From Thermococcus paralvinellae (GTDB lineage Archaea > Methanobacteriota_B > Thermococci > Thermococcales > Thermococcaceae), in the NCBI RefSeq assembly GCF_000517445.1, contig NZ_CP006965.1:310001-374000 (forward strand): DNA of 64,000 bases, read 5' to 3'. The notes beneath the pieces are model-generated. The model did not search any database. It saw only the letters and a program-made list of their open reading frames with translations, and was not told the origin of the DNA. Within the stretch, counting starts at the first letter, position 1, and each line of letters starts with the position of its first letter. This document shows, in pieces, positions 5,453-24,906 of the stretch. The translations under genes and the position numbers were made by a program.

Positions 5453-5510
5453 AGCTGTCAGCCTGACGTGCAGTCATCACCACTCAGACCTAGCGAACTT
5501 CATCATCTAT
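5453..5510 (-). ncRNA. C/D box guide sRNA (canonical boxes)
   Basis: Read on the minus strand the element has box C ATGATGA (5500-5506), a 12-base guide (5488-5499), box D' CTGA (5484-5487), a three-base spacer, box C' GTGATGA (5474-5480), a second 12-base guide (5462-5473) and box D CTGA (5458-5461). Two 12-base guides with a three-base D'-C' spacer is the typical Pyrococcus 2'-O-methylation guide design. L7Ae, Nop5 and fibrillarin would bind it. Targets were not assigned; the base pairing with the fifth guide position upstream of each D box would be methylated. An AT-rich promoter-like stretch (5526-5537) overlaps the end of nreA. Confidence 0.88.
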
Positions 5511-21179: not shown

Positions 21180-21267
21180 TGGTGCGGGGGACGGGATTCG
21201 AACCCGCGCAGCCCTCCGGCAGCGGATCTTAAGTCCGCCCCCTTTGGCCAGGCTCGGGCACCCCCGC
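21180..21267 (-). tRNA. tRNA-Leu (TAA), CCA encoded
   Basis: On the minus strand acceptor GCGGGGG (21267-21261) pairs with CCCCCGC (21190-21184). The anticodon stem GCGGA/TCCGC holds loop CTTAAGA with anticodon TAA. A long variable arm marks a class II tRNA. Discriminator A and CCA follow. A TATA-like TTTTTAATTT lies near 21292-21301. The 170 bases between it and L40e (21008-21179) hold no gene. Confidence 0.97.
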
Positions 21268-21315
21268 TCATTCACTAAGATGAAGGATGTAAATTAAAAA
21301 GCTTTCGGTATTTAG

Positions 21316-21376
21316 AAAGCCTCGGAAGTGATGGCCCTCCTCACCTTTCGGTGCCGGGCCTTCTCCTCATCGGCAA
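21316..21376 (-). ncRNA. C/D box guide sRNA with co-varied box positions
   Basis: Read on the minus strand: box C ATGAGGA (21364-21370), 12-base guide (21352-21363), box D' CCGA (21348-21351), three-base spacer, box C' GTGAGGA (21338-21344), 12-base guide (21326-21337), box D CCGA (21322-21325), with GCC/GGC closing the ends. Spacing equals that of the other two guide RNAs here. Both C-type boxes have G where U is normal and both D-type boxes have C where U is normal, turning the U-U pair of each kink-turn into G-C. The patch is far richer in GC than its surroundings, and a TATA box lies 27 bases upstream. The two guides are partly complementary to each other, so a hairpin RNA of another class is the alternative. 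Confidence 0.65.
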
Positions 21377-21395: not shown

Positions 21396-21403
21396 TTTAT
21401 AAA
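21396..21403. promoter_or_regulatory. TATA box possibly shared by the guide sRNA and the ThiS-like gene
   Basis: The self-complementary TTTATAAA sits about 26 bases from the 5' end of the minus-strand guide RNA and about 35 bases before the plus-strand ATG at 21435. It fits the archaeal TATA position for both directions. No second candidate box is visible in this gap. Confidence 0.5.
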
Positions 21404-21434
21404 CCTAAACTCTAACGCTCATTTGGTGATAGCG

Positions 21435-21638
21435 ATGATAAAAGTTAAGGTCATTGGGAGGAAAATTGAGAAGGAGATTGAGTGGCAGAAGGGTATGAAA
21501 GTTGCAGATGTCCTGAGAGCTGTTGGCTTCAACACGGAGAGTGCAATAGCAAAAGTGAATGGAAAAGTTGCCTTAGAAGATGATCCTATTAAAGATGGTG
21601 ATTATGTCGAGGTTATTCCGGTGGTTTCGGGAGGATAA
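21435..21638 (+). CDS. MoaD/ThiS family ubiquitin-like protein (possible SAMP)
   Basis: A 67-residue beta-grasp protein ending VIPVVSGG. The terminal Gly-Gly is needed for adenylation by an E1-like enzyme and for thiocarboxylate or isopeptide formation. KVADVLRAVGFNTESAIAKV and DGDYVEVIPVVSGG fit the family. It may deliver sulfur for molybdopterin, thiamine or tRNA thiolation, or act as a small archaeal protein modifier; context does not decide. GGTGAT is four bases before the ATG at 21435. Confidence 0.88.
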   Translation: MIKVKVIGRKIEKEIEWQKGMKVADVLRAVGFNTESAIAKVNGKVALEDDPIKDGDYVEVIPVVSGG

Positions 21639-24847: not shown

Positions 24848-24906
24848 GTGGGCGATGACGAATAGCAAGCATGCTGATTAGTGATGACGTGAACACCCTC
24901 TGAGCC
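24848..24906 (+). ncRNA. C/D box guide sRNA
   Basis: Box C is the variant ATGACGA (24855-24861), followed by a 12-base guide (24862-24873), box D' CTGA (24874-24877), spacer TTA, box C' GTGATGA (24881-24887), a 12-base guide (24888-24899) and box D CTGA (24900-24903), closed by GGC/GCC. A TATA-like ATACTTAAG near 24817-24825 lies 27-30 bases upstream. The 3' end reaches the stop codon of the convergent GH130 gene. Targets were not assigned. Confidence 0.85.

Follow-up and report, generated by a model that had tools for sequence, protein, structure and literature searches.

A new sR47-family box C/D sRNA in which both kink-turn motifs carry G-C instead of U.U at 3b:3n

Kink-turns with a Watson-Crick pair at position 3b.3n are blocked from folding in metal ions alone, and the U4 snRNA kink-turn, which strongly favours G-C or G-U at 3b.3n, folds upon binding a protein of the L7Ae family (PMC4382518). 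The kink-turns of archaeal box C/D RNAs already need L7Ae with the pair that they usually carry at this position, which is U:U (PMC5689011). The RNA described here has G-C at this position in both of its motifs, and adds a member to the known family sR47 (RF01131).

The RNA is encoded on the minus strand at positions 21319-21374 of the window, by which is meant the whole 64,000-nucleotide stretch of DNA that was analysed, and reads GCC-G-ATGAGGA-GAAGGCCCGGCA-CCGA-AAG-GTGAGGA-GGGCCATCACTT-CCGA-GGC. A terminal stem of three pairs, formed by GCC (21372-21374) and GGC (21319-21321), joins box C (ATGAGGA, 21364-21370) to box D (CCGA, 21322-21325), and the interval from box C to box D (21370-21322) holds guide 1 (GAAGGCCCGGCA, 21352-21363), box D′ (CCGA, 21348-21351), the D′-C′ spacer AAG (21345-21347), box C′ (GTGAGGA, 21338-21344), and guide 2 (GGGCCATCACTT, 21326-21337), giving a spacing of 12-3-12. 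In the kink-turn, 3b is the fifth base of box C and 3n the second base of box D, so that G (3b) in boxes C and C′ faces C (3n) in boxes D and D′ and U.U is replaced by G-C in both motifs. The four boxes follow RUGANGA and CNGA in the correct order and deviate from the strict RUGAUGA and CUGA at the 3b and 3n bases of both motifs; these positions vary across the whole order and are therefore not diagnostic of a C/D sRNA. Tandem sheared G.A and A.G pairs can be formed in both motifs. The window contains two further C/D RNAs with 12-3-12 spacing, one at 24855-24903 (+) that is Rfam sR3, and one at 5458-5506 (-), a canonical C/D sRNA (ATGATGA-AGTTCGCTAGGT-CTGA-GTG-GTGATGA-CTGCACGTCAGG-CTGA) for which an Rfam search gave no match at the gathering score. 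The original prediction, which described a C/D guide RNA with these boxes, with facing base changes and with the spacing of the two other guides, is thus upheld in these respects.

An Rfam search of the window identified the RNA as sR47 over its full length (1-55) with 48.1 bits and an E-value of 6e-8, above the gathering score of 40, and matches above the cut-off were also obtained for homologues; in a whole-genome search the same locus scored 33.7 bits, below the 40-bit cut-off. A model of its own family gave 65.6 bits (E 2e-19), with the window RNA itself as one of the 15 seed sequences. Searching 94 Thermococcales genomes, first with RF01131 and then with the model of the window's own group, revealed that RF01131 spans two groups of paralogues, whose guides are CUUUCGGGCC / GGCCNCCCUAUC in group A and GCCCGGC / GGCYAYCAC in group B; the two groups probably have different targets. 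The window copy belongs to group B, which is found as a single copy in each of about 50 of the 94 genomes, with 48 copies parsed. The second sR47-type RNA of the window's genome, a group A copy with guides CUUUCGGGCC / AGGCCCUCCUAU, lies elsewhere on the contig (1819977-1820034). Among group B homologues the terminal stem shows compensatory changes (pair 2 is C-G in 40 and U-A in 7; pair 3 is G-C, C-G, U-A or A-U and is paired in 46 of 48), all or nearly all retain the terminal stem and the 4b:4n pairs, and the guide 1 core GCCCGGC is constant in 15 aligned homologues. On the evidence computed here, which comprises assignment to the family, its conservation, the states of the boxes, their base rates and the complementarity of the guides, this RNA is very probably an ordinary archaeal C/D sRNA belonging to sR47 that would be expressed, bound by its proteins and used to guide rRNA methylation. 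No useful paper on sR47 or on a map of archaeal ribose methylation came up in a search of the available literature.

The sRNA overlaps no ORF of at least 60 codons and is intergenic, lying between tRNA-Leu(UAA) at 21180-21267 on the same strand and a divergent ORF at 21423-21638 (+), whose MoaD/ThiS-like label is taken from its sequence. The element TTTATAAA at 21396-21403 (-), about 25 nt upstream of the sRNA and identical in six species of the window's genus (g1), is likely its TATA box. The tRNA-Leu(UAA) gene appears to have its own promoter between the sRNA and tRNA genes, namely CGAAAGCTTTTTAAT at 21291-21305 (-), a likely BRE/TATA conserved in the six species. A 7-nt insertion in the window's genome (G000) and in G089 creates a terminator-like hairpin just upstream of CGAAAGCTTTTTAAT. 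The original prediction proposed a search for a homologue beside tRNA-Leu(TAA) in other Thermococcales, and all six homologues detected in g1 adjoin tRNA-Leu(UAA); the gene lies near tRNA-Arg(CCU) in genus g5 and near tRNA-Cys/tRNA-Ser in two genomes of genus g4. Kinship, sequence and number of genomes suggest that g4 is Thermococcus and g3 Pyrococcus, and these names are used below. The neighbouring tRNA-Leu(UAA) was rejected as a target, its best match to the guides being just 6 pairs.

Across the six g1 species this RNA of about 55 nt is identical except at three of the four 3b/3n positions, an arrangement that three random variable sites would produce with p ~1.5e-4. The states of the terminal and internal motifs are, respectively, G-C and G-C in G000 and G090, G-C and U.C in G087 and G091, G-C and G.U in G089, and U.C and U.C in G092, reflecting box C ATGATGA in G092, box D′ CTGA in G089, and box C′ GTGATGA in G087, G091 and G092. 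More distant homologues carry G.U and U.C (G093), G.U, A-U or G-C with U.U (Pyrococcus), U.U with U.U (g5), or mostly U.U in the terminal motif with G-C or U.U in the internal motif (Thermococcus). These states indicate that 3b:3n drifts, that uncompensated states persist, and that the double G-C is not conserved.

How often such pairs arise was assessed with a search pattern in which the other box bases were fixed and 3b and 3n left free, applied to 14 Thermococcales genomes and giving 300 listed C/D sRNAs in two sets of 150, the first representing at least 150 C/D sRNAs (the matches listed) and the second drawn from genomes absent from the first. The reversed pattern gave 1 match against 176 real ones in 8 genomes and none in 7 genomes, placing the four-box pattern far above chance. 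The original assignment as a C/D guide is supported. Among the 300 sRNAs listed, terminal motifs were U.U in 186, C.C in 33, G-C in 26, A-U in 25, C.U in 15 and G.U in 7, and internal motifs U.U in 202, G-C in 28, G.U in 17, A.G in 17, C.C in 11 and U.C in 11. With G-C in 26 of the 300 terminal and 28 of the 300 internal motifs (9% each), 2.4 double G-C sRNAs are expected among those listed and 1 was seen, so that a double replacement needs no special cause; the original claim that compensation in two places is hard to explain by chance does not hold. Sequence comparison shows the double G-C to be real but fairly ordinary, since the pair concerned varies freely among relatives. The stronger proposal behind that claim, that both motifs were changed jointly by selection favouring a special G-C kink-turn with distinct L7Ae/fibrillarin binding, draws on the occurrence of G-C in both motifs of the window RNA, of G090 and of one Thermococcus homologue (G041), but is highly improbable given that sister RNAs with the same guides have at least one motif with U.C or G.U, that doubles do not exceed the base rate, and that most Pyrococcus homologues have G.U or A-U, and all g5 and most Thermococcus homologues U.U, in the terminal motif.

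The 3b:3n pair covaries across the 300 listed Thermococcales C/D sRNAs of the 14 genomes. G is paired with C far more often than independence predicts (Fisher 9e-7 and 6e-10 in set 1; 1.4e-8 and 3e-6 in set 2), with p-values that are too small because homologous sRNAs are counted several times; when the test is confined to the window's genome, whose sRNAs are for the most part unrelated, G-C is found in 4 of 22 terminal motifs (Fisher 0.002). With one sRNA per family the permutation p is 0.005 for both motifs, which is the floor of a test that is conservative because single-linkage clustering lumps unrelated sRNAs (largest cluster 98). Among the sRNAs listed, G at 3n was found solely with A at 3b (20/20), U at 3b was accompanied by U at 3n in 186 of 188 terminal motifs, and C.C was common (33/300 terminal motifs). 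A literature search found no paper describing 3b:3n covariation in Thermococcales C/D sRNAs. It is possible, though doubtful, that 3b:3n is selected as a pair in Thermococcales, moving within the limited set U.U, G-C, G.U, A-U, C.C, C.U and A.G and largely avoiding others; such a limited set would imply that each sRNA tunes the strictness of its need for L7Ae, with the window RNA as an extreme whose two motifs would be unfoldable without protein.

The window strand folds better than 200 of 200 shuffles (z -4.0), a result that stems mainly from D′-C′ complementarity and from the complementarity of guides 1 and 2 (GGCCC/GGGCC), the latter anticipated in the original prediction. This fold raises the question of whether the conserved entity is a hairpin RNA, made of the D′-C′ hairpin and a guide 1/guide 2 stem, with the C/D boxes as an incidental or decaying element. 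Thermococcus homologues lend it some colour, for they keep the D′-C′ hairpin with a spacing of 15-3-12 and a guide 1 of 15-16 nt, and acquire an additional inner pair (GCAC/GTGC); their box C′, mostly GTGCGGA or GTGCTGA, has C in place of the sheared A at 2b (for example L160, L161, L166, L168-L170 and L172-L175). That C can pair with the G of box D′, as a Watson-Crick 2b:2n pair, or lengthen the D′-C′ hairpin. Many Pyrococcus homologues, on the other hand, have a disrupted hairpin (C.A and C.U at inner positions, C.A at the outer) yet keep all four boxes, with 12-3-12 spacing in 8 of 9, and the retention of the terminal stem and 4b:4n pairs noted above is likewise at odds with incidental boxes; the hairpin was therefore rejected as the primary feature, and such an account is scarcely credible. 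The pattern named in the original prediction as speaking against a C/D RNA, a hairpin kept with the box spacing lost, is thus approached in Thermococcus and reversed in Pyrococcus. L7Ae kink-turns need the sheared A at 2b, and its loss together with a 15-nt guide suggests that guide 1 function is weakened in most Thermococcus. The 3b:3n pair still covaries in Thermococcus (G-C 16, U.U 6, U.C 2). In the G070 homologue (L184), box D′ is CTAA and box C′ GTGCTGA, and the internal 2b:2n pair has lost both conserved bases.

Matching the guides to rRNA and tRNAs, a check proposed with the original prediction, gave a recurring site for guide 2 and tied sites for guide 1. In the rRNA complementarity scan guide 2 forms 11 contiguous pairs with 16S 498-508, which is the best rRNA site for 10 of 11 homologous guide 2 sequences and the second for the remaining one; in the duplex core the varying guide bases are C or T opposite G, and the outermost bases vary freely. 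Shuffled versions of guide 2 matched rRNA equally well in 65 of 1000 cases, and those of the G012 guide in 12 of 1000, a modest significance for any one guide. A site at 23S 352-363 was rejected, being best in G093 alone and not common to the others. The guide base five positions upstream of box D faces 16S G502, equivalent to E. coli G550 and, on the strength of this complementarity, most likely the target of guide 2; E. coli 550 is presumably part of helix 3. The 16S target region is identical or nearly so throughout the order. Helices 3 and 18 are listed as an archaeal methylation hotspot (PMC7994747). Guide 1 forms 8 G-C pairs with 16S 536-543 and possibly targets G539 (E. coli G587), its target being uncertain because this site is tied with 23S G1343 and tRNA-Arg.

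The two candidate 16S sites lie close together, and the C/D RNP might act mainly as a folding chaperone of 16S that bridges them across 37 nt and methylates little or not at all, a type of role that has been proposed for archaeal dual guides (PMC7994747). In line with this, the 3.2 Å structure of the P. abyssi 30S subunit lists only Am373, Cm1376 and ac4Cm250 as 16S 2′-O-methyls, the predicted site being absent (PMC7005279), which also counts against the methylation predicted there. The guide 1 site is weak, however, and every scored homologue has a Watson-Crick pair between the target and the guide 2 base five positions upstream of box D, which is weak evidence against a chaperone since the scoring demanded that pair; on balance a mainly chaperoning role seems unlikely. 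For a methylation guide of the sR47 family, the sequence of events would begin with L7Ae binding to the terminal C/D kink-turn and the internal C′/D′ kink-loop, and Nop5 and fibrillarin would then join. Guide 2 would pair with its 16S site and place a 2′-O-methyl on G502, near helices 3/18, and guide 1 may pair downstream, aiming at G539. On this reading the G-C pairs occupy 3b:3n, the least constrained pair of the box motif, which drifts between U.U, G.U, U.C and G-C among close relatives.

Two consequences extend beyond this locus. Only 105 of the 300 sRNAs listed have U.U in both motifs, so that box C/D searches demanding RUGAUGA and CUGA will miss a good share of Thermococcales guides. The g1 homologues also form a natural series of near-identical RNAs differing only at 3b:3n, which would allow the L7Ae dependence of kink-turn folding to be measured at high temperature.

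With regard to known systems, the window RNA resembles RF01131, described from Pyrococcus and relatives, in its boxes, length and guide cores. The Archaeoglobus fulgidus C/D kink-turn shares its architecture, the sheared G.A and A.G pairs and G-C at 4b:4n, and differs in having U:U at 3b:3n, where the window RNA has G-C in both motifs (PMC5689011). The kink-turn of the U4 snRNA 5′ stem-loop, the 15.5K/Snu13 site, is alike in its bias to G-C or G-U at 3b.3n and in needing protein (PMC4382518). By this analogy G-C at 3b:3n should keep or strengthen the dependence on L7Ae. The likeness concerns the motif only, as U4 snRNA, unlike the window RNA, is spliceosomal, has one kink-turn and carries no guides.
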